Positions 21,959-38,892 of a stretch of 64,000 bases of DNA are shown in pieces. The notes beneath the pieces were generated by a model. It worked only from the letters and a program-made list of their open reading frames with translations, was not told where the DNA came from and did not search any database. Position numbers and translations under genes: made by a program. The stretch spans positions 1,364,001 through 1,428,000 of the forward strand of contig NZ_LT900021.1 in assembly GCF_900198835.1 (NCBI RefSeq), read 5' to 3'. Within the stretch, counting starts at the first letter, position 1. Each line of letters starts with the position of its first letter. Source of the DNA: Thermococcus henrietii (GTDB lineage Archaea; Methanobacteriota_B; Thermococci; Thermococcales; Thermococcaceae).

Positions 21959-21959
<1 letters not shown>
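21504..21959. repeat. Hairpin-rich non-coding segment next to the left att site
   Basis: No credible gene. It is AT-rich and packed with inverted repeats: GAAGCTTTT-GGA-AAAAGCTTC (21625-21645), CTTTGC-CTTC-GCAAAG (21656-21671), CGCTCC-GAA-GGAGCG (21801-21815), TCTCT-T-AGAGA (21816-21826), and an 11-bp stem TCAAACTTCGC with loop CTGC at 21933-21958 that abuts the att core. This was the original downstream flank of tRNA-Arg before integration, so hairpins may be tRNA transcript terminators or a scar of repeated insertion. Confidence 0.6.
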
Positions 21960-23059
<1,100 letters not shown>

Positions 23060-23076: not shown

Positions 23077-23148
23077 ATTTTAGGTTTTATAAAGGTTTCA
23101 GTGGAGGACACACCTTCTTTCGGGATTTTAGGTTTTATAAAGGTTTCA
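23077..23148 (+). repeat. Tandem 24-nt repeats containing TATA boxes
   Basis: ATTTTAGGTTTTATAAAGG followed by TTTCA occurs at 23077-23100 and again, identical, at 23125-23148 (48-bp period). Each contains TTTATAAA preceded by a purine-rich stretch, so they can be two tandem promoters or binding sites for the downstream replication operon. Confidence 0.65.
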
Positions 23149-23231
23149 CTTGGGAAATAAAGGACAAATATGGGATATTCAACTGGTAGCCTTTAAAAAA
23201 GCACAACGGGGCAAACTTTATGGTGAAGGTG

Positions 23232-23795
23232 ATGAAAAACGAGACCCTCACACAGATGAATATCGAAACGGTAGCAAACGCGGCAGTGACGAACGCACAG
23301 GCTGGTACTGTTCTGGACAATTTTGTCCAGAATTGGGACAGGAGGCTTAAGCAATTTTCAACTTCCGTATATACGGAAGTGCCTATGCTGGTGTCGCTCG
23401 GAAAAGAAGTTTGTTCGAAACAAAGAGAGGACTTCCCCTACTACAACAGCGACCCCACAAAAAGAAACGGAGACATCTTTATATGGAAAAGGGAACTCAC
23501 CGAAGAAGAGAAAGAGAAACTAAAGGAGTGGCGCGACGAGGAAAAATTCGCAGTTCTCCTCGTCGGAAAAACCCAGCTCCCAATAACTGTGAAAGTAAAA
23601 GAGAACCAGTGGGCTTTTAGAGTCAGGATTCCCGCCTCAGTGAGCAGACTGTTCTTTATGGGCAAGCACTCAGCCCAGGTAAAAGTCTTCGAGAACGGCC
23701 TCCTCATCAAACTGCCCAAGAACATCCTGAACCCCCAATTCTTCGACTTCAAAAACGGAGAAGAATTACTGAAAGGAGGGAGCAACGATGAGTGA
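23232..23795 (+). CDS. Small putative DNA-binding regulator of the element
   Basis: 187 aa from ATG 23232 (GGTGAAGGTG upstream; TATA-like CTTTAAAAAA near 23189). The C-terminal half, ITVKVKENQWAFRVRIPASV and VKVFENGLLIKLP, resembles a swapped-hairpin AbrB-like beta domain, and similar 'xFxxxIPxR' stretches occur in the 35513 and 37756 genes. The first ~45 codons contain two strong palindromes and an internal copy of the element promoter, so the functional protein may start later, for example at ATG 23384. Its stop overlaps the primase-helicase start by 8 nt, suggesting an operon. Function inferred. Confidence 0.6.
   Translation: MKNETLTQMNIETVANAAVTNAQAGTVLDNFVQNWDRRLKQFSTSVYTEVPMLVSLGKEVCSKQREDFPYYNSDPTKRNGDIFIWKRELTEEEKEKLKEWRDEEKFAVLLVGKTQLPITVKVKENQWAFRVRIPASVSRLFFMGKHSAQVKVFENGLLIKLPKNILNPQFFDFKNGEELLKGGSNDE
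23311..23380 (+). promoter_or_regulatory. Two palindromes flanking an internal promoter
   Basis: TTCTGGACAA-TT-TTGTCCAGAA (23311-23332, 10-bp arms) is followed by GAGGCTTAAGCAATTTT (23342-23358), which matches the promoters of the element's other operons, and then by the perfect 20-bp palindrome ACTTCCGTATATACGGAAGT (23361-23380). An operator before the BRE/TATA and one at the expected start site is the layout of a tightly regulated archaeal promoter. Confidence 0.65.
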
Positions 23796-26700
23796 AGCCC
23801 CCACCACAACACAAACCACCAACCAGTCCCCAGTTAGAACAGAGAAAAAACCCCTTAAAAAGACTGCCCTCACCGTCCAAGTCGAGAAGATACTCGACTA
23901 CCTGAACCAGTTCTACTTCGAGTGGCAGGGCTATCCAAAGGACAACCCCGATTACCTCGTCCGCATATGCAAGAACAAAAAAGACCGCTGGGAAGAAAAA
24001 CACTTCTCCCTCCCCCAAGTCGCAAGAAGGGATGAGGAGCTAAAAAACTTCATAACGGACGCCATATGGAACAAAAAGAGTCTGTATAACAGCATCAGAG
24101 CTTACAGTAGGGGAGCGAGCTTGAAAAAGTGCGGTGGAAAAGCCTGTTTTAAGGCGTTCAAAGCCATCCAAAAAGGGAGCAGTAGGGTTCTCCTGCTGGA
24201 TATTGACAAGGAGGGTCACGAGCCGTTCACCATCGAGGAGTTTGAGAAGGAGTTCAGGGAGCTCCTAAAGGAGATGAAGGATGCGGGCATCAAGTTCGTG
24301 TATTACAACAGCGGGCGTGGCGTCCACATCCGCATACTGCTTGATGAGCCACTGAGCGAGAACGAATACGGCAAAGTGATAGAAACACTGGCCCAGTATC
24401 ATCGGGAGATACTCAAGGAGGGGAGGCCTACTCTAACCATAGACACACAGGTTGGCGACTTGGCGAGAGTCTTCAGGACAGTCGGCTCTTACAACCACAA
24501 AAACCCGGTAGCACTTGTGGGCTCCGATATGAGGGGCATCGAAGGGGTCACTGAGAAGAAGAAACTCCTCCAGTTTGTGAAGGAAAAAGAGGGACTTCTC
24601 CAGAGGGTGAACGAAGCGGAAAAAACTCCGGATGAGAAATTCGATATATACAGTAACGATTTTGAAAACATCGCTAAGAAAATTGCCGAGATATGGAAAC
24701 CCTATTACAGAGAGGGGACGAGGCAAAACCTCGCCCTGCTACTGGCCGGCATCCTGAAAAAATACACAGTGTTAGATGAGGACAAAGTGGAGAAACTCTT
24801 CAGGGAAATTATCGAGAACTTGAAAGATGACGAAGAGGCTGTCAGATTAGGTGGCTTGCAAAATACCCTGAAAAAAGACAACCCAGCAACGATTACCCTC
24901 TTCTTCCTAAAGGGAGATAAAGGAGAAATTATTGACAGGAGCGGGCGGTTAGAGCAATTCTGCAGTGTGAACAACCTTAGCAAAGAACAGGGAGCAAAGA
25001 CCCTCGAAGAGCTCATAGAAAAAACAAGGGGAGCTTTGAAGGAAAAAGGATTAGCAGTCAAAGCGAGAGGGCTCATAGGCAGGAAACAATTTCAAAGAAA
25101 AATAACCCGGAAAGGGGTCGTGATAAGCTCTCTCGAAGTTTACAAGGATAAGGTAAAACTGTCCACAGCAAGATACAACGAGGAGGAGGGCAGGTGGGAA
25201 GTAATAGGCGAAGACGCCGTTTTTGATGGGAGCTTTAGGCTAAGGAAGATTGAAGTAATAAGAAGCGCAGACAAAAAAGCACCAACAAAATACTTTACAA
25301 TAGACTTCGTCAGCAAAAACGGGGAAAAAGAAACCTTGGAAAGAGTAACACTCCCCGAGATGGCGAATATCTTCGCCTCAACAGAATATGCAGTTATGAA
25401 GTCTACAAGCGAACTCAAGAAAATATTCCAGGGGATTATCTCCATCCTAAAGGACAAAAATAACATACAAGAAGAGAGCCTTTTCGAAGGCTTTGAATTC
25501 GAGATTATACACGAAGATGACTACCAGCTCGTCACGCAAAAAAGTGGCGAGATTCTGAATAACCTCGTGAAAATTGACGAAACCGCAGGAGAAGTCAAGA
25601 ATATGACAAAGCTCCTAACCGCTATGAACTGCATAAAAGACGACAAGCTATTATTCTTGCTCGCAGGCACGAGCTTCTCAGCACCCCTAAACGAATTCAT
25701 AGAATACAAACCAATAATATGGATATACGGTCCCCCATCAGTCGGCAAAACAAGCTCAGCGAGAATTTTCACAGAAAAAGCCTGGGGAGTAGAAGCCCCG
25801 GATGCAGTGAACATCACGGGAAGCAACTTCAGACTGGACTACTACCTAAAAGTTGGCTCCGTCCCACTTCTCGTAGATGACATATCTGAAATTTCATACG
25901 GAAAACTCGTAGACTCCCTAAAGTCCTATGCAACCAGAAACACATCAAACATAAGGGGAAAAGCGGACTTGACGATAGAACAATACAAGCGGACTGCAAG
26001 CTTGATATTCCTCTCAAACTACAAATTAAAACTCAAAAGGAAAGACGAGGCCTTTTTGGATAGGGTATTCCAGTATGAAGTCCAAGAACAAGTATTTGAC
26101 GAAAACTGCCCAAGAGGACTGGTAAGCTCCCTCCCAAGAGGAATTTTTCCAAAAAGCGATTTCTTCGGCCTCATCTTCTACAAACACCCAAAAGATTTAT
26201 TCTACGAAAAAGCGGGCGAAATAGAAGAAAAAGTTGGGAGCATCATACCAAGCGTCACTGGAAGGAGAGCAGAATTTTGGGCAAAACTACTTGTGGGGCT
26301 TATTGGCTTCAGGAACTTCTTGCAAATCGCACTTGAAGGGTTCCAGAACTTAGACCCAAAAGAAAACAAAGAACTGGACCTACCCGAACTGAAAAAAGCC
26401 ACCGCAAACTTTGAAAAACGGCTCGACAGCATCATCGAAAAAGCTCCCGAGTTAATAAAAGAAATTGAGAGCACCCAAGACGACGACACTGTGCTTGCGA
26501 TATATGCAAAAGACATACTGAGAGCCATAGTCAAAGACTCCGACCTACGCATAAGCAGGACGAAAAGAGGAAAAGAATACTTCTATGTGACGAGGGTAGA
26601 ACTCGAAGAAGGAAGAAAAAGAGACAGGCAAAAAATACGGAGCCTCTTTGAACGGATAGACAGCCTCAACCAACTTAAAAAAGCCCTCGAAGCCCTCGAC

Positions 26701-27516
26701 TCAGACTTCGTTGAGATTGGCAGATACAAATTCAACAACAAAAAAATAACAGCACTCCAGATAGACGCCGAAGTCGCAAGAAACCTGATAGAAGAAGATG
26801 AGTGGGGAGGAAGAAGCATAGAAAAAGAGCCCACAGACACCGACATAGGATACGCCCTAACCGATGCCCTTGACGCCTTCTCAGAACGGGGCACGAAAAA
26901 AATAGTGAGCCCCTTCATACTCTACAACCACCTAAACGAAAAGCTAAGCCACTTCGGCCCCAAGTGGTCCACCTGGACAGAAGAAGATATGATACTCCTC
27001 CTGGAACAATTAGCAAAAGAAAAAGCCATAGAGAAAGTGCTGGGGCTTGATGGGACGCCGACCTACCTTGTCGCAGATAAGAAGAAATTCCTTGAGAAGT
27101 TCCCAGAACTCCTCAAAAAAGAGGCTGAAAACAAACTCAAACTCACAGAAACCCCCGAAACAGAAAACACGAACGAACCGATGCCCCCAGACGACCTACT
27201 CAAAAGAGTCATCACCAGCGTCCTCGGAGCCACCACAGAAACTGACGAAGAAGGCCACAAACGCCTCAAAATAGACGACGCCGTAAGAGCCTACAACACA
27301 ATTATGCCCAGAGAAGGCTACCCCACTTGGGGCCACTGGACAAGAGGAGACTTCCTCGATGTCGTTTACTACCTCAGAAAAGACGGCCTCGTCAAGAAAA
27401 CAAAACGGGGCAGTATGACTTACTACTACATCATCGGGGACGAGGAGAAGACGGTCGAACGCTTCGTCGAAGCCCTAAAGATGATTTACCAAGAACGCTG
27501 GGGAGACGATTGGTAA
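23788..27516 (+). CDS. Primase-helicase replication protein of the element
   Basis: 1242 aa. N-terminal archaeo-eukaryotic primase-like domain: DxD at D138/D140 (LLLDIDKEG), SGRGVHIR with H180, and RVFRTVGSYNHK at 227-238. A central P-loop ATPase has Walker A GPPSVGKTSS (K654) and acidic Walker B VDDIS (D697, D698), followed by a helicase-type IFLSNYK sensor; this suits a superfamily-3-like replicative helicase. The C-terminus (~1180-1220) looks like a winged helix. Similar prim-pol/helicase fusions drive replication in archaeal plasmids and viruses. Coupled to the regulator upstream; iterons follow directly downstream. Coding strand strongly A-rich. Confidence 0.85.
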   Translation: MSEAPTTTQTTNQSPVRTEKKPLKKTALTVQVEKILDYLNQFYFEWQGYPKDNPDYLVRICKNKKDRWEEKHFSLPQVARRDEELKNFITDAIWNKKSLYNSIRAYSRGASLKKCGGKACFKAFKAIQKGSSRVLLLDIDKEGHEPFTIEEFEKEFRELLKEMKDAGIKFVYYNSGRGVHIRILLDEPLSENEYGKVIETLAQYHREILKEGRPTLTIDTQVGDLARVFRTVGSYNHKNPVALVGSDMRGIEGVTEKKKLLQFVKEKEGLLQRVNEAEKTPDEKFDIYSNDFENIAKKIAEIWKPYYREGTRQNLALLLAGILKKYTVLDEDKVEKLFREIIENLKDDEEAVRLGGLQNTLKKDNPATITLFFLKGDKGEIIDRSGRLEQFCSVNNLSKEQGAKTLEELIEKTRGALKEKGLAVKARGLIGRKQFQRKITRKGVVISSLEVYKDKVKLSTARYNEEEGRWEVIGEDAVFDGSFRLRKIEVIRSADKKAPTKYFTIDFVSKNGEKETLERVTLPEMANIFASTEYAVMKSTSELKKIFQGIISILKDKNNIQEESLFEGFEFEIIHEDDYQLVTQKSGEILNNLVKIDETAGEVKNMTKLLTAMNCIKDDKLLFLLAGTSFSAPLNEFIEYKPIIWIYGPPSVGKTSSARIFTEKAWGVEAPDAVNITGSNFRLDYYLKVGSVPLLVDDISEISYGKLVDSLKSYATRNTSNIRGKADLTIEQYKRTASLIFLSNYKLKLKRKDEAFLDRVFQYEVQEQVFDENCPRGLVSSLPRGIFPKSDFFGLIFYKHPKDLFYEKAGEIEEKVGSIIPSVTGRRAEFWAKLLVGLIGFRNFLQIALEGFQNLDPKENKELDLPELKKATANFEKRLDSIIEKAPELIKEIESTQDDDTVLAIYAKDILRAIVKDSDLRISRTKRGKEYFYVTRVELEEGRKRDRQKIRSLFERIDSLNQLKKALEALDSDFVEIGRYKFNNKKITALQIDAEVARNLIEEDEWGGRSIEKEPTDTDIGYALTDALDAFSERGTKKIVSPFILYNHLNEKLSHFGPKWSTWTEEDMILLLEQLAKEKAIEKVLGLDGTPTYLVADKKKFLEKFPELLKKEAENKLKLTETPETENTNEPMPPDDLLKRVITSVLGATTETDEEGHKRLKIDDAVRAYNTIMPREGYPTWGHWTRGDFLDVVYYLRKDGLVKKTKRGSMTYYYIIGDEEKTVERFVEALKMIYQERWGDDW

Positions 27517-28130
27517 GCTTTTTTTCTTCTCCCTCCTTCTCCATAAGCGGGACAAAAATATGAGATACACTGTGCCTTTCATATTTTCTGGGGACACTGG
27601 GACAGTATGGGGACACTGCCAATATTTCTTTAACTGTCCCATCCAAACGATAGCCTGGTGAACTCCCACTCAAAAATTCTTCAAGGGGGGCACTGGGACA
27701 GTGGTTTTTCGAGCATCGCATATTGTGGTAGGATTTGCGCAAAGGGGACACTGGGGCAGTGGGGGACACTTGTCGAAAAATTTTTAGTGTCCCCCGAATT
27801 TTGAGGCTGTGTGCTCTCTCGCTTAAGAATTCTTCAAAGGGGACAGTGGACAGTTGATTTTGGGTATCCAAAAATATAATTTGCACCCCTCTGTGAAAAA
27901 AATTAATCCCAAAAACTGCAAGTTCACTGTCCCCCCACCCCTTTGAATTTGAAGGCTATATTGCATACAGACCCAGAATCTGAGGGGGGACACTGGGGAC
28001 AGTAGACTTTACGATTGTAAACTATATTTGAATTTTGAGGCTGTATGCCCTCCAGCCTAAGAATTCTTCAGGGGGGACAGTGGGGACAGTAGAAGGGGTA
28101 AACAGGGGTGTCCCCTTTTTTATCACCCCT
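27517..28130. repeat. Iteron region, putative replication origin
   Basis: A 0.6-kb gene-free block with repeated GGGGACA(C/G)TGGGGACAGT-like units at 27590-27606, 27609-27620, 27685-27702, 27744-27771, 27839-27854, 27984-28003 and 28071-28090, and inverted ones at 27633-27640, 27786-27795 and 27925-27932. Several follow AAGAATTCTTCA (27824 and 28059 regions), and two units share a longer TTTTGAGGCTGTRTGC leader, so the basic unit is ~80-100 bp and degenerate. It lies directly after the primase-helicase gene and at the strand-composition switch point. Confidence 0.7.
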
Positions 28131-28799: not shown

Positions 28800-28899
28800 G
28801 CGTGAACTTTAAAAAAGGGGAGTTCTAAGTGTATCTGTCTTAATTACGGGCCTACAATCTCCGCCCACAAACAGTTCACGAAGAGTGGTGGTGTCCACT

Positions 28900-29451
28900 A
28901 TGAGACGAAAGGCTGGCCTCAAAGGAGCTTTCAAGAAGTTCTTGGAAGTTTTGGGAGTCATATTCCTGCTTTTGTTTGCTATTGGTGCCTACACCGTGTA
29001 TGAAGAGAACAAAAACCCCTCAGGAAAGGTTTACACTCAGAAGGAAGTGCTCCAGGGCTGGGTGAACGCACGGGTCAAGTATGCACTTAATCACGATATA
29101 GAGATTGATTTCACTATATATCGGGACACTTCTAACCCGGGTCACTACAACCCCAAACTCGACCGTGCAATCGCAAGAGGTGCAGGGTGGGCCTTTTTGA
29201 ACGTAACCGTCGAAAGGTATAAACTATTCAAATTTGCTTATGTCCCGAAATTGACTAACGGAACGGACATATCCTCGCTCCAGTTTGAAAATTTCACGGC
29301 CAAGAATTTGTATGATGAACTGCACAAACTGGCCAATTCCAAAGGTCTGCCCCTAAACGCTGTATTTGTTCTCGAACCAAACGATGGCACGGGAGCAAAC
29401 GGGTATTATGGTATCGTCAATATAACCTTGTCAAGGAATTGGATTGGTTGA
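28900..29451 (+). CDS. Membrane-anchored element protein, paralog B (183 aa)
   Basis: ATG 28900 after GGTGGTGTCC; an upstream GTG is less likely. MRRKAGLKGAFKKFLEVLGV is a basic cytoplasmic head, followed by one membrane helix (VIFLLLFAIGAYTVYEE) and an exterior domain with FTIYRDTSNPGHYNP, FAYVPKL, FTAKNLYDEL and a C-terminal GYYGIVNITLSRNWIG. Very close to paralog C at 30270 and distantly related to paralog A. An oligo-T tract follows at 29453. Probably a surface or particle component; function unknown. Confidence 0.78.
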   Translation: MRRKAGLKGAFKKFLEVLGVIFLLLFAIGAYTVYEENKNPSGKVYTQKEVLQGWVNARVKYALNHDIEIDFTIYRDTSNPGHYNPKLDRAIARGAGWAFLNVTVERYKLFKFAYVPKLTNGTDISSLQFENFTAKNLYDELHKLANSKGLPLNAVFVLEPNDGTGANGYYGIVNITLSRNWIG

Positions 29452-30166: not shown

Positions 30167-30269
30167 TTATGAAGCCCACAGGTTGCTTCAATTCTTCCGA
30201 GGTCCTTCACTTCAGGGGTTGCACACGAGGCGTTAAAACTTTCTCACAGTTGTTTGGGTGGTGGTGTCT

Positions 30270-30815
30270 TTGAAGCGTAGGGCAGGTTTCAAGGGTGCCA
30301 TCAAAAAGCTGTTGGAGGTCCTGGGTGTCATCTTCATCCTCATAGTGGCCCTCGGAGCGTATGCCGTTTATGAGGAAAGCAAGACGCCTTCTGGGAAGGT
30401 GTATACTCAGAAGGAAGTGTTCCAGAACTGGGCGAACGCCCGGGTCAAGTTTGCACTTGAGAACGAGATAGTGCTGAACTATACTGTTTACAAGGATACG
30501 GCTGAGCCCGGTCGGTTCAACCCTCAGCTTGACCGTGCTGTGTCCGTTGGGCAGGGTTGGGAGTTCCTCAACGACACCGCTCATCGTTTCGGCCTTCTCC
30601 AGTTTGGTTATGTGCCGAACCTTGCTCCTGGGTCGAAATACAAGCCGTCCGCTTTGAAGAAGTTCACTGCTAAGAACTTTTATGATGAGCTTGTGAGTTT
30701 GGTGAAGGTGCAGGGCCTCCCGTTGAACGCTACTTTCGTCCTTGAGCCTTTCGGGGGAGAGGGTGGCTATTATGCTGTTGTTTCGGTTCACTTGGAGCGT
30801 GGGTGGGGCGGTTGA
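30270..30815 (+). CDS. Membrane-anchored element protein, paralog C (181 aa)
   Basis: TTG 30270 aligns with the ATG of paralog B and follows the same GGTGGTGTC. LKRRAGFKGAIKKLLEVLGV, one membrane helix (IFILIVALGAYAVYEE), then PSGKVYTQKEVFQNWANARVKFAL, nearly the same as in paralog B. The C-terminus is GGYYAVVSVHLERGWGG. The repeated duplication suggests subunits of one assembly. Coding strand is G/T-rich, unlike the left arm. Confidence 0.78.
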   Translation: MKRRAGFKGAIKKLLEVLGVIFILIVALGAYAVYEESKTPSGKVYTQKEVFQNWANARVKFALENEIVLNYTVYKDTAEPGRFNPQLDRAVSVGQGWEFLNDTAHRFGLLQFGYVPNLAPGSKYKPSALKKFTAKNFYDELVSLVKVQGLPLNATFVLEPFGGEGGYYAVVSVHLERGWGG

Positions 30816-31361: not shown

Positions 31362-31660
31362 ACTTTCACCGAAGTTAATTATATAAAAAAACAACTTAAC
31401 CCTCCGAGAATCAGGTTGAGCTACTCGCCCCTCTCCTCGTTCTTGTTTATCTGTTATCTGTTCTGTCTGTTCTGTGGGGATTTTTTATTTATATAAATAA
31501 AAAACTCCTCAAGATAGAGAACAGACTGACTTCCTTCCTGTCCTGAGGCGTGGGGTTTGAGAGGAAGTCAAGTGTTCCCGAGGAAAAAGAGAAGAAGAGA
31601 ATAATTGGGAACTTCTCAAGTGAAGAGTGAAGGACTGCCCTCTTCCCCGCTGGTGTGGTG
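31362..31660. other. Palindrome-rich intergenic region
   Basis: Between divergent genes. Contains a perfect 24-bp AT palindrome at 31481-31504 (TTTTTTATTTAT and its complement), flanked by 9-bp arms GTCTGTTCT (31465-31473) and AGAACAGAC (31518-31526), then GACTTCCT (31528-31535) with AGGAAGTC (31562-31569). Direct CTGTT repeats precede it (31450-31475). It could be a regulatory hub, a terminator pair or an accessory replication site. Confidence 0.55.
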
Positions 31661-31702: not shown

Positions 31703-33661
31703 ATGATTGATGTCCTCTCGTTCCTGCTCGCCTTCCTCGGGGGTTTTGTTCCGGCCTACACTATCAACCATCCTGTTCCCGTCATAATTCCTCCCTCGGC
31801 TGTCCTCTCATCAGCTTCGCCCCACCAACTTGCTGGTGGCAGTGCGGGGGCAGGGAGTCCTGGGAGTTTTTTCACTGTGTTGGTGGTCCCCGATTCCGGG
31901 TCCTCTTTCCACTATGTTGAGGTTATTTATGAGGCCGATAAGCCAGCGAGTATAAGTGCGAACCTGTCCAATTTGAGCACTATTTGTGCGTATATTCGTT
32001 TCCCAAAACTGCCTTCGGGGTATAAGGACGAATACCCAAGTATTAAGCTTTTGGGGTGGGGTGTGACTTTCATCACTCGGTTGAAGGAGAGGGTGCTGAC
32101 GGTGACTCCCAGGGGCCCTGCGTTTGTTTACAGGGATGTGCTCGTCCACGCTTCTCGGATTATCTTTTACAATACTTCGGAGATTCGCCTTTATCCGCCT
32201 TCGGCTTTCAGTTGGGGTATTGTCCCCACTAAGAAGAAGGGAGAGGCCTGGCGACTCATCAGTTTCTATGCGGGTAATATGACCCTTTATGTTTTTGCGA
32301 GTGGTGTCGGGCCTGTTTGGTATACTGGACAGCTCAGTTTCAGCAAGAGTGTCGAGCTTCAGTGGATACAACTGTGGGATAAGGCGAACAATTTCTCTTC
32401 CGTTATTGAGAGTCAGCCTCTTGATGATGGGGGCAATTCGTCAGGGGCTTCGGATAATTCTACTAACTCGACGGGCAATAACAACGGCACAGGCCCATCG
32501 AATTCTTCTAACTCGACTAACTCCTCGGTGAGCGTGGAGCCCGATGACCCGAGTTATGTTCTCAAGCAGGCCGTTCAGGAGATGGAGCGGGATTCCCACA
32601 GTTATGATGACGCCAGCTCGTTCTCGAATATTTACAGCACTGGGCCGTTCCACTACAAGTTTCCGAGGCTGTGGTTTTATCATCATACTGAAAAGTGGTC
32701 TGTTTCTGATGGAGTGACCGTCAAGCATCGGAGTATTAAGGAAGCGTATTTGCCGATTGTTCCGCTCTCGCAGGTTGCGGAGTATTTGAACCTCACGGTG
32801 CCCGATTACTGGAAGAATAATTTGACTATGATGGATTTGGCCGTTTTGGCCAATAAGAGCTTGACCTATATTGAGGACCTTGTGGTGAACCTCACCGTTC
32901 GAAAGTATGAGGCTTTGATGGGGAGTTCAACCAATTTGAGGGCCGAGGGCTTGAGTTATATTGACGGGCACTGGCTTGTTAAGGTGAGTGGCTCCGAGTC
33001 GGTGATGGTAACGCTCACGGTTTCAGAGGGGAAGACTATTGTCGGCACCCTTCACCCGATTGCTCGGTGGACTGTTGTAAGTGCCTTTCCCGCATCTGGC
33101 TATATCCTCGTGAACAAGCATACTGGCGAGGCCTATATTCGGGTTTACCCAGAGGGTGACTTGCCCACTTCACAGTTCGGGGTTATCACTGGCACAGTTG
33201 TGTTGTATGGTGGCGAGGCCATCGTGACGACTTGGAAGGATGGGCTCCCAACGGGGGTTTTCACGAAGTATATTTACCGTTACAAGGCCAGCGTGAAGTT
33301 GGGGAGCAAGGCCCTCATAAAGGCTCACTTGAAGGACCTTCACCTAACTTCCGTGCTCAACCAATTGGGCTACAAGTTGTATGCCCAGAACGATGATTGG
33401 GCCCTCTACCGTTTCGGCCTCTCGAAGAAGGAAGTAAGAGCCCTTCAATATGAGCGGGAAGCGGGGGCTTTTCGTCTTTTCTGGGCTTATTTGGAAGATT
33501 CGGGTTTGGTCTGGGTGTTCGACCCGTCGTTGAAGAAATTGTCTGATGATGTGAAAAAACGGGTGTGGGTGAACCCGGCCCGTTTGGTCCTTTCCTCAAA
33601 CGACCTGGTGGATGGTGCAGTTAGCCGTAAGGGTGTTTTCTTCGTCTACACTGATACCTGA
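31703..33661 (+). CDS. Large secreted element protein (652 aa)
   Basis: ATG 31703 with G-rich RBS. N-terminal signal/anchor (VLSFLLAFLGGFVPAY). Exterior region of beta-rich sequence interrupted by an Asn/Ser/Thr/Gly linker (residues ~255-290, GGNSSGASDNSTNSTGN...) with dense N-glycosylation-type sites. The second half (LPIVPLSQVAEYLNLTVPDYW…, IYRYKASVKLGSKALIKAH…) has no recognised domain and no clear C-terminal anchor. A surface, adhesin or spike-like role is inference. The linker separates two probable globular parts. Confidence 0.75.
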   Translation: MIDVLSFLLAFLGGFVPAYTINHPVPVIIPPSAVLSSASPHQLAGGSAGAGSPGSFFTVLVVPDSGSSFHYVEVIYEADKPASISANLSNLSTICAYIRFPKLPSGYKDEYPSIKLLGWGVTFITRLKERVLTVTPRGPAFVYRDVLVHASRIIFYNTSEIRLYPPSAFSWGIVPTKKKGEAWRLISFYAGNMTLYVFASGVGPVWYTGQLSFSKSVELQWIQLWDKANNFSSVIESQPLDDGGNSSGASDNSTNSTGNNNGTGPSNSSNSTNSSVSVEPDDPSYVLKQAVQEMERDSHSYDDASSFSNIYSTGPFHYKFPRLWFYHHTEKWSVSDGVTVKHRSIKEAYLPIVPLSQVAEYLNLTVPDYWKNNLTMMDLAVLANKSLTYIEDLVVNLTVRKYEALMGSSTNLRAEGLSYIDGHWLVKVSGSESVMVTLTVSEGKTIVGTLHPIARWTVVSAFPASGYILVNKHTGEAYIRVYPEGDLPTSQFGVITGTVVLYGGEAIVTTWKDGLPTGVFTKYIYRYKASVKLGSKALIKAHLKDLHLTSVLNQLGYKLYAQNDDWALYRFGLSKKEVRALQYEREAGAFRLFWAYLEDSGLVWVFDPSLKKLSDDVKKRVWVNPARLVLSSNDLVDGAVSRKGVFFVYTDT

Positions 33662-33706: not shown

Positions 33707-34420
33707 TCAGAAGAAGACATCTTTGATGGCATCAACGATGCCCCTGCTGTCTATGAGGAGTTCCTTCGAGATGGTATACTCCTGACCGTCAGCGGTCAGC
33801 AACCTAATCTTGAAGCGGAAATCCATCTTTTCACCAGTTATCAAGCTCCACTTCTTCTCGGTTGTGACGACGAGGGAGAGAGTGCAGTCATAGTAGGTGG
33901 TTGCGGGGGTCGTGTTAGTGGCCTTCGTGGTGAAGGATGCGTTGCAGAGGCCGAGCTTGTTGAGGTAGTTGAAGTTGAAGTCAATCGGGATGTAGTTCAT
34001 AGCCGTGTTTATGTTGAACTCCTTAACGACATCCTGAGAGGGGATGTTTAGGGTGTCCCCGTGTAGTCCTTCTGCTATTTTTGTCCCCAGGTCGCCCTTG
34101 AGGATGGCTATCTTATCGAAGAAGAACTGGCCGTTCGCCGTCTTGTAGAAGCTCATCAGCACTCTGTCCCCGGGCTTTATGTTGTAGACTTCGACTTCAA
34201 TTGGGATGACGGTTTTCTGGTCTTTGAAGTAGCCGCCGCCTTCGAAAACGGCCTTGTCTCCAGTGTCGGGGTGGAGCAGTTTTATGTTTGGGCTGTGAGT
34301 GGTGGCTGGTGTCGTGTGCTGGGTGAGGTTTGAGAGGTAGCCGTTCTTGTAGGCCCAGTATCCTACGGCGAGTAATAGGAGTAAAAACAACAGGTCGCTT
34401 GAATTGGCTCGGCGTTTCAC
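33707..34420 (-). CDS. Membrane-anchored element protein (237 aa)
   Basis: Starts MKRRANSSDLLFLLLLLAVG: basic head, one membrane helix (residues ~9-25), Thr/Pro-rich spacer (TQHTTPATTHSP), then a beta-rich exterior domain with two cysteines (LCNASF, YYDCTLS) that could form a disulfide. Promoter on the minus strand (GCGGGGAGGGTTAAAGTG, 34447-34466, then ATTAGTGGTGAAAG) belongs to the element family and is divergent from the Cas4-like gene. Not recognised. Confidence 0.75.
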   Translation of the reverse strand: MKRRANSSDLLFLLLLLAVGYWAYKNGYLSNLTQHTTPATTHSPNIKLLHPDTGDKAVFEGGGYFKDQKTVIPIEVEVYNIKPGDRVLMSFYKTANGQFFFDKIAILKGDLGTKIAEGLHGDTLNIPSQDVVKEFNINTAMNYIPIDFNFNYLNKLGLCNASFTTKATNTTPATTYYDCTLSLVVTTEKKWSLITGEKMDFRFKIRLLTADGQEYTISKELLIDSRGIVDAIKDVFF

Positions 34421-34446: not shown

Positions 34447-34492
34447 GGCACTTTAACCCTCCCCGCGTGTCTGGTGAGGCTTAAGCAATTTT
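34447..34492. promoter_or_regulatory. Divergent element-type promoters
   Basis: Minus: GCGGGGAGGGTTAAAGTG at 34449-34466 for the 237-aa gene. Plus: GAGGCTTAAGCAATTTT at 34476-34492 for the Cas4-like gene, whose GTG 34518 follows GGTAAGAGCT. The two face away from each other with overlapping regulatory space. Confidence 0.55.
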
Positions 34493-35464: not shown

Positions 35465-35512
35465 CAGCGGGGAGGTTAAGGTGTTTGAGTGAAGATTATT
35501 ATGGTGATGGTG
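35465..35512 (+). promoter_or_regulatory. Element-type promoter of the 35513 gene
   Basis: CAGCGGGGAGGTTAAGG (35465-35481) as BRE/TATA; GGTGATGGTG directly before ATG 35513 as RBS, with several in-frame ATG/GTG codons just upstream. Confidence 0.5.
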
Positions 35513-35956
35513 ATGGGAAAGCAGAGGCCGAAGGATGAGGGGACGGCCACCACTGGCCGATTTTACATCAGGCAGGATTGCGCCTCAGTCAGCCCGAGGT
35601 TTGATGTCCATATCTACCCGTCGGCCATAGAGGAGAAGCCTGCCTTGAGAAGTTTCCTCTTTCGGTGCTCAGACTGGGAGTATACCCCTGTGGAGCTCCG
35701 GATTTACGGGGTCAGTGATGAGCCCATAACGACGCTCTTTGGGGCGAAAGTCAGTTATGTGGATTTGGCCCGTTTCAAGAAGAACACGAACAGTTACCGC
35801 TTTCAGCTCTCTATCCCAGCCCGCTTTTTGACCCTGATTAAGAAGGTCCTCAAGGATTTGCCCTCTTCAGGGCCCATAACGGTGAGGGTTGAAAAGAGGG
35901 ATGGGTTCAGGAGGAAACTCATAGTCCTTGAACTTCACGCCGACGAATTCGATTGA
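35513..35956 (+). CDS. Small beta-rich element protein, 147 aa (paralog of 37756)
   Basis: ATG 35513 chosen from the promoter distance; earlier starts add up to 8 residues. VELRIYG, YRFQLSIPARFLTLIKKVL and GFRRKLIVLEL match in order VKLRILK, TRFQFTIPQRVVTPLEDVL and GSDFLVCEL in the 37756 protein. The 'FxxxIPxR' strand also recurs in the 23232 protein, hinting at an AbrB-like or related DNA-binding beta fold. Functional call is inference. Confidence 0.65.
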   Translation: MGKQRPKDEGTATTGRFYIRQDCASVSPRFDVHIYPSAIEEKPALRSFLFRCSDWEYTPVELRIYGVSDEPITTLFGAKVSYVDLARFKKNTNSYRFQLSIPARFLTLIKKVLKDLPSSGPITVRVEKRDGFRRKLIVLELHADEFD

Positions 35957-37755: not shown

Positions 37756-38178
37756 GTGGGTCGGGATAAGAAGGTTGGTGTAAGTGAAGCCCGTTTGATA
37801 CGGTCGCAGGAGGACTGGGGGAGATACTCATACAGGGTGTATGCTTATGTTGGGAAGATTCATCCTGATTTGACGGCGAGGCTTAATAAGAAGGTCAGCG
37901 AGGAGCTGGAAGTGAAGTTGAGGATTCTGAAGGGCAGGAAAAAGCTGGTTGAGGTTCCGTTCACGGCGACCCTTTTGAGGGTTGTTATGCTTGGGGTGAA
38001 CAAGGAGGGGAGGAGTATTCATAAGGGGACGAGGTTTCAGTTCACTATTCCTCAGAGGGTGGTTACTCCTCTTGAGGATGTGCTTGGGTGGGAGCGGAAT
38101 AGTTGGCCTGTTCAATTGTTTTTTGAGCACGATGAGCGGTTCGGTAGTGATTTTCTCGTGTGCGAGTTGAAGCTTTGA
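37756..38178 (+). CDS. Small beta-rich element protein, 140 aa (paralog of 35513)
   Basis: GTG 37756 chosen by analogy with other element genes (…TTAGTGGTG then start); ATG 37735 lies within the promoter. Conserved with the 35513 protein in strand order, including TRFQFTIPQRVV and FLVCELKL. Two positively charged helices near residues 40-65. Possible DNA-binding or virion-associated protein; family unknown. Confidence 0.62.
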   Translation: MGRDKKVGVSEARLIRSQEDWGRYSYRVYAYVGKIHPDLTARLNKKVSEELEVKLRILKGRKKLVEVPFTATLLRVVMLGVNKEGRSIHKGTRFQFTIPQRVVTPLEDVLGWERNSWPVQLFFEHDERFGSDFLVCELKL

Positions 38179-38460: not shown

Positions 38461-38496
38461 CTTATAAGGCTGGAATTTGTACAACTTTTGTACAAC
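38461..38496 (+). promoter_or_regulatory. int promoter with tandem TTGTACAA operators
   Basis: CTTATAAGG at 38461-38469 is the TATA box. TTGTACAA, a perfect 8-bp palindrome, occurs at 38477-38484 and 38488-38495, centres 11 bp apart (one helical turn), covering the expected transcription start. A second identical pair with the same 11-bp spacing lies at 38681-38688 and 38692-38699. Confidence 0.7.

Positions 38497-38517: not shown

Positions 38518-38892
<375 letters not shown>

Follow-up and report, generated by a model that had tools for sequence, protein, structure and literature searches.

The replication operon orf56/orf904 of the Sulfolobus islandicus plasmid pRN1 encodes a repressor, ORF56, and a replication protein (PMC4234260). 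Its single promoter lies before the repressor gene, its transcripts start ~9 nt before the start codon, and a candidate origin, marked by a 100-nt stem-loop, is found downstream of the replication gene. Stf76 of the plasmid-virus pSSVx has two binding sites in its own promoter, of which one is near the core (-28 to -14) and the other further upstream (-92 to -78; PMC4027180). The archaeal regulators that have been characterised are mostly repressors, which act by promoter occlusion (PMC5569661). Internal start sites are common in Thermococcus kodakarensis, with 644 found; at TK1361 and TK1620 an ORF contains BRE and TATA elements, with an in-frame start beyond them (PMC4247193). How replication is switched on in integrated Thermococcales elements is little known.

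The locus that is considered here lies in an integrated virus- or plasmid-like element of ~17 kb at a tRNA-Arg gene of the 2.16-Mb Thermococcus henrietii genome, within the 64,000-nt stretch that was analysed (the window). Our preferred reading of it is a promoter (P2) that lies inside the element's replication operon and is flanked by operators, in an arrangement that is not random: one member of an element-specific promoter class is nested in a small gene, with two unique palindromes around it and a replication gene directly behind. On balance we think it probable, judging from the sequence, that the replication operon is controlled from this region, with a conventional promoter (P1) before the small gene and the nested P2 driving the primase-helicase (Table 1).

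In layout much of this resembles pRN1, though we do not class the operon with it: a small gene directly upstream of a primase-helicase-type gene in one operon, a (predicted) transcription start ~9 nt before the start codon and a candidate origin downstream of the replication gene. The differences are that the small gene contains a second promoter, that the small protein is without a match to a known repressor family, whereas ORF56 is a transcriptional repressor, and that a repeat array takes the place of the stem-loop. The disposition of the palindromes is like that of the Stf76 sites, but those serve one protein, while the palindromes, at ~-14 to +6 and ~-64 to -43, differ in their half-sites. 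The internal starts of T. kodakarensis share with P2 the BRE/TATA inside an ORF and the in-frame start beyond it; flanking palindromes are not described for them, and P2 belongs to an element-specific motif class. With the pT26-2 plasmid family the element has in common its tRNA-Arg integration site (an att segment of ~49 bp is the same as in pT26-2) and an integrase gene that carries the tRNA end (PMC6972569). Similarity to pT26-2 DNA is limited, in the parts searched, to the att segment, and nothing in the plasmid collection matches the primase-helicase.

Table 1. Features of the element and its replication locus (positions in the window; positions relative to the P2 start are predicted)
Feature	Position	Strand	Remarks
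Element left end	~21959		tRNA-Arg end fused to archaeal integrase gene
Integrase gene	21959-23059		archaeal; PF16795 match; carries tRNA end
Direct repeats, ATTTTAGGTTTTATAAAGGTTTCA	23077-23100 and 23125-23148	+	24 bp, perfect; 48 bp apart; TATA-like core; between integrase gene and P1
P1 TATA-like box, CTTTAAAAAA	23191-23200	+	centre 37 nt upstream of ATG 23232; expected transcription start ~23218-23221
Shine-Dalgarno sequence of long form, GGTGAA	23222-23227	+	4 nt before ATG 23232
Small gene, long form	23232-23795	+	187 aa; longest ORF from ATG 23220, 191 aa
Palindrome 1, TTCTGGACAA-TT-TTGTCCAGAA	23311-23332		10+2+10, 22 bp, arms perfect; ~-64 to -43 of P2; putative operator
P2 (BRE/TATA), GAGGCTTAAGCAATTTT	23342-23358	+	TATA-like CTTAAG at 23346-23351
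Palindrome 2, ACTTCCGTATATACGGAAGT	23361-23380		20 bp, perfect; ~-14 to +6 of P2, over expected P2 start at ~23375; putative operator
Small gene, candidate short form from P2	23385-23795	+	136 aa; in-frame ATG 36 nt after CTTAAG centre; lacks N-terminal 51 residues
Primase-helicase-like replication gene	23788-27516	+	1242 aa; overlaps small gene end; Shine-Dalgarno GGAGG
Iteron-like array, GGGGACA(C/G)TGGGGACAGT-type repeats	27590-28095	+	~ten copies; between primase-helicase gene and next gene
Start codons at CTTAAG spacing	23385, 28182, 31703, 34518, 36617, 37756	+	
tRNA-Arg gene, element right end	38816-38892		

A promoter class confined to the element

The sequence GAGGCTTAAG is the promoter core of the element's own class, and the copy at 23342, between the integrase gene and the primase-helicase-like gene, points to the in-frame ATG at 23385. 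The longer P2 sequence recurs at 34476 (17/17 positions) and 36575 (16/17), with a weaker copy at 31660 (14/17); at up to three mismatches, 0.15 matches are expected in the window. Six of the seven plus-strand CTTAAG hexamers in the element are followed by the start codon of an ORF no shorter than 136 aa, which lies exactly 35-36 nt downstream of the hexamer centre, as against none of the eight that lie outside the element in the window. With a background rate of 2.3% per position, the binomial probability of the former is ~1e-9, a figure that is indicative, since the spacing rule was chosen after the data had been seen. A looser pattern, GRGGNTTAAR, taken on both strands, finds starts at 34-36 nt for 6/7 sites in the element versus 0/4 chromosomal sites in the window, and brings in two genes on the minus strand, which start at 34420 and ~31361. 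There are thus eight element promoters of one class, each with its start codon 34-36 nt beyond the centre of the box.

The pattern GRGGCTTAAGS..TTT occurs four times in the 2.16-Mb genome, all four within the element; in related genomes the motif is found only with two mismatches, and then about as frequently as a reversed control pattern. The fixed spacing, the confinement to the element and the control-level frequency in relatives together indicate that the class belongs to the element and that the site at 23342 is one of its members. The presence of an internal, element-specific promoter at that site is strongly supported on this evidence, and we have little doubt that P2 works as a promoter.

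In Thermococcales promoters the box is placed ~27 nt upstream of the transcription start, with the start codon usually 10-50 nt further on. The element promoters agree with this general layout (BRE, TATA-like box, start codon beyond) in their spacing, and the P2 transcript would accordingly begin near 23375. P2 departs from the T. onnurineus consensus, which has an A-rich BRE and a TTWTAW TATA box (PMC5316973); its G-rich upstream part and CTTAAG mark it as an element-specific variant. The TATATA at the centre of palindrome 2 was weighed as a possible TATA box and rejected, there being no suitable start codon at the element's spacing.

The class can also be used to re-annotate gene starts. For the longest ORFs that open at 31655, 34491, 36605 and 37735, the start codons set by the promoter spacing lie further downstream, at 31703, 34518, 36617 and 37756, and these are probably the true starts.

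Two starts for one small gene

The first-pass annotation had proposed that the start of the small gene, which it placed at 23232, is annotated too early, with the true gene beginning near 23384, or else that the gene carries an internal, self-controlled promoter driving the primase-helicase. The coordinate 23232 is indeed that of the best-supported upstream start, although the longest ORF opens slightly upstream of it. GGTGAA conforms to the Shine-Dalgarno consensus GGDGRD of T. kodakarensis and T. onnurineus (PMC4247193, PMC5316973). Asking for both a TATA-like hexamer 33-38 nt upstream and GGDGRD 4-9 nt upstream of the start leaves just 9 of the 622 candidates in the window, ATG 23232 among them; of the eight others, three belong to the element promoter class, and the remainder seem plausible as starts of genes. 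The direct repeats at 23077 and 23125 were also considered as the promoter of the long form; they lie too far upstream of ATG 23232, and the box at 23191 fits better.

The 55 codons of the ORF upstream of ATG 23385 look moderately coding. The probability of their being open by chance is ~6%. Of simulated open non-coding frames, 4-8% have a higher codon score than these codons, whose score stands at the 5th-12th percentile of real segments.

On the reading that there is only an annotation error, the gene begins at ATG 23385 under P2, the 55 codons are untranslated and the palindromes are ordinary intergenic operators. ATG 23385 (the in-frame codon next to the proposed 23384) does stand at the element-wide spacing of 35-36 nt from its CTTAAG, the codon score of the extension is low among real segments, T. 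kodakarensis offers 35 such cases (TK1361, for example; PMC4247193), and the small proteins encoded ahead of primase in two other genomes are without the extension, their homology to the protein considered here being unproven. Yet the extension is free of stops and scores above 92-96% of the simulated open non-coding frames, a TATA-like box and a consensus Shine-Dalgarno sequence precede ATG 23232 at standard spacing, and ATG 23385 is preceded by a weak Shine-Dalgarno sequence, GGAAGTG. These signals weaken the case for a start annotated too early, and we consider an annotation error alone unlikely. The canonical start signals at ATG 23232 favour instead the internal promoter, that is, two nested promoters, for which the shared motif, its fixed spacing from starts and its confinement to the element also speak. 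Both start codons, ATG 23232 and ATG 23385, may be in use.

Palindromes around P2

The inverted repeat of 10+10 bp, the promoter motif and the 20-bp palindrome that had been pointed out within 70 bp are all present in the sequence. By chance, 0.15 palindromes with arms of at least 10 and a gap of 0-4 are expected per 17 kb, and when the 55 upstream residues were re-coded 20,000 times according to the codon usage of the element, no sequence contained two separate palindromes with arms of at least 10. A chance origin of the palindromes is excluded.

Each of the palindromes is unique: no second copy with up to two mismatches is found in the 2.16-Mb genome, and no comparable palindrome accompanies the other element promoters. 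(A 24-bp perfect palindrome consisting of A and T only lies at 31481-31504, in the intergenic stretch that separates two divergent promoters of this class.) Their sequences are also not conserved in any relative searched, as one would expect if the motif at 23342 were a relic or a chance resemblance and the palindromes were functionless; that motif, however, is identical over 17 bp to another element promoter and element-confined, and the outcome of the synonymous re-codings speaks equally against this explanation, to which we give scarcely any credence.

The placement of palindrome 2 over the predicted start follows from the distances of ~27 nt for the TATA centre and ~33 nt for the BRE upstream of transcription starts (PMC5316973). 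Most likely the palindromes are bound by dimeric proteins, and their position suggests that both probably act as operators. Since their half-sites are unlike (TTCTGGACAA versus ACTTCCGTAT), two different binding proteins are likely, and one protein on both is unlikely.

Might the palindromes work in RNA instead, as hairpins in the long transcript that hide the GGAAGTG before ATG 23385 or pause the polymerase? They yield clean folds of 8-10 bp, with -13.8 and -10.8 kcal/mol at 37 °C, and palindrome 2 contains GGAAGT. At 80 °C the same folds are marginal, at -4.6 and -2.0 kcal/mol; moreover, a transcript from P2 would hold just part of palindrome 2, neither palindrome is followed by a T-run, and neither matches an Rfam family (the tRNA is the only Rfam match). 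Such a role strikes us as very improbable.

The palindromes lie just upstream of a replication gene, and they might for that reason be part of a replication origin, as sites of the primase-helicase or of an origin-binding protein, with no part in transcription control. Relatives of the primase-helicase with ~29% identity exist in two genomes, in distant elements, and in each of them a single long perfect palindrome stands upstream of the primase gene, 14+3+14 in one (L018:5921-5951) and 15+1+15 in the other (L019:5698-5728); arms longer than 10 were absent from 100 simulated sequences. (Scans with the primase alignment, run over viral contigs and genome contigs, returned nothing.) Those palindromes are unrelated in sequence to palindromes 1 and 2 and one of them is inside an ORF, so that a palindrome upstream of primase is a recurring arrangement and not a case of conservation. 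The iteron-like array downstream of the primase-helicase gene, on the same side as the stem-loop origin of pRN1 (PMC4234260), is the better candidate for a replication origin and makes it less likely that the palindromes are one; they are, besides, arranged around a promoter and its expected start. An origin function of the palindromes thus appears to be quite improbable, and we return to transcription control by operators.

The small protein and a proposed control circuit

The product of the small gene is a putative regulator by virtue of its position. No relatives of it were found in plasmids, phages, viral contigs or 150 related genomes, and a profile built from three proteins of the window found nothing beyond the host genome itself. 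The protein has no Pfam match, no meaningful NCBIfam match and no solved relative; a PHROG match is weak (E 0.006) and of unknown function. Structure predictions are poor (pLDDT 35 and 50), and fold searches with them gave no match. An F.IP motif brought the AbrB/MazE family to mind, but none of 24 matches of PF04014 in the genome, at E up to 10, is at the small gene. Resemblances to the ORFs at 35498-35953 and 37756-38175, and to the small proteins that precede primase in the genomes G046 and G054, are not significant, and no homology is drawn from them.

By sequence, the small gene and the replication gene form one operon, overlapping at 23788, where GGAGG precedes the second start, with promoters upstream of both. 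The P-loop region of the primase-helicase matches AAA models weakly.

The circuit that we infer (its transcription start positions, operator function, repression, the identity of the binding proteins and the use of a short form) is anchored in what can be read directly from the DNA, which are both palindromes, the class membership of P2 and start signals for both forms of the protein. P1 would start the small gene at ATG 23232 and yield the 187-aa protein. P2, starting near 23375 inside that gene, would drive the primase-helicase gene and perhaps also give the 136-aa form from ATG 23385. Palindrome 2 would be the site of a repressor that, sitting over the P2 start, blocks recruitment or advance of the polymerase, while palindrome 1, just upstream of the P2 BRE, would bind a dimeric protein. 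The two palindromes would be bound by different proteins, with the small gene product as leading candidate for one of them; if it binds a palindrome in its own gene, the operon would be self-regulating, as in pRN1. That P2 is controlled by the small gene's own product is a tentative proposal, to which we attach somewhat less than even confidence. A more elaborate version, in which one gene encodes a pair of nested regulators (the long one made from P1, the short one from P2) of an undescribed DNA-binding family that oppose each other on the palindromes and so time replication, is a long shot. Should the palindromes be operators, the circuit that controls such an element would be open to direct tests.

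Two further features of the element may be recorded. Near its right end, TTGTACAA occurs at 38477-38495 and 38679-38701 as two pairs, 11 bp apart within each, which look like an operator for another regulator. The genes at 28885-29451 and 30258-30815 have similar translations, with a MVVS..RR.G.KG start and a shared body, and are apparently a duplicated membrane-anchored protein.
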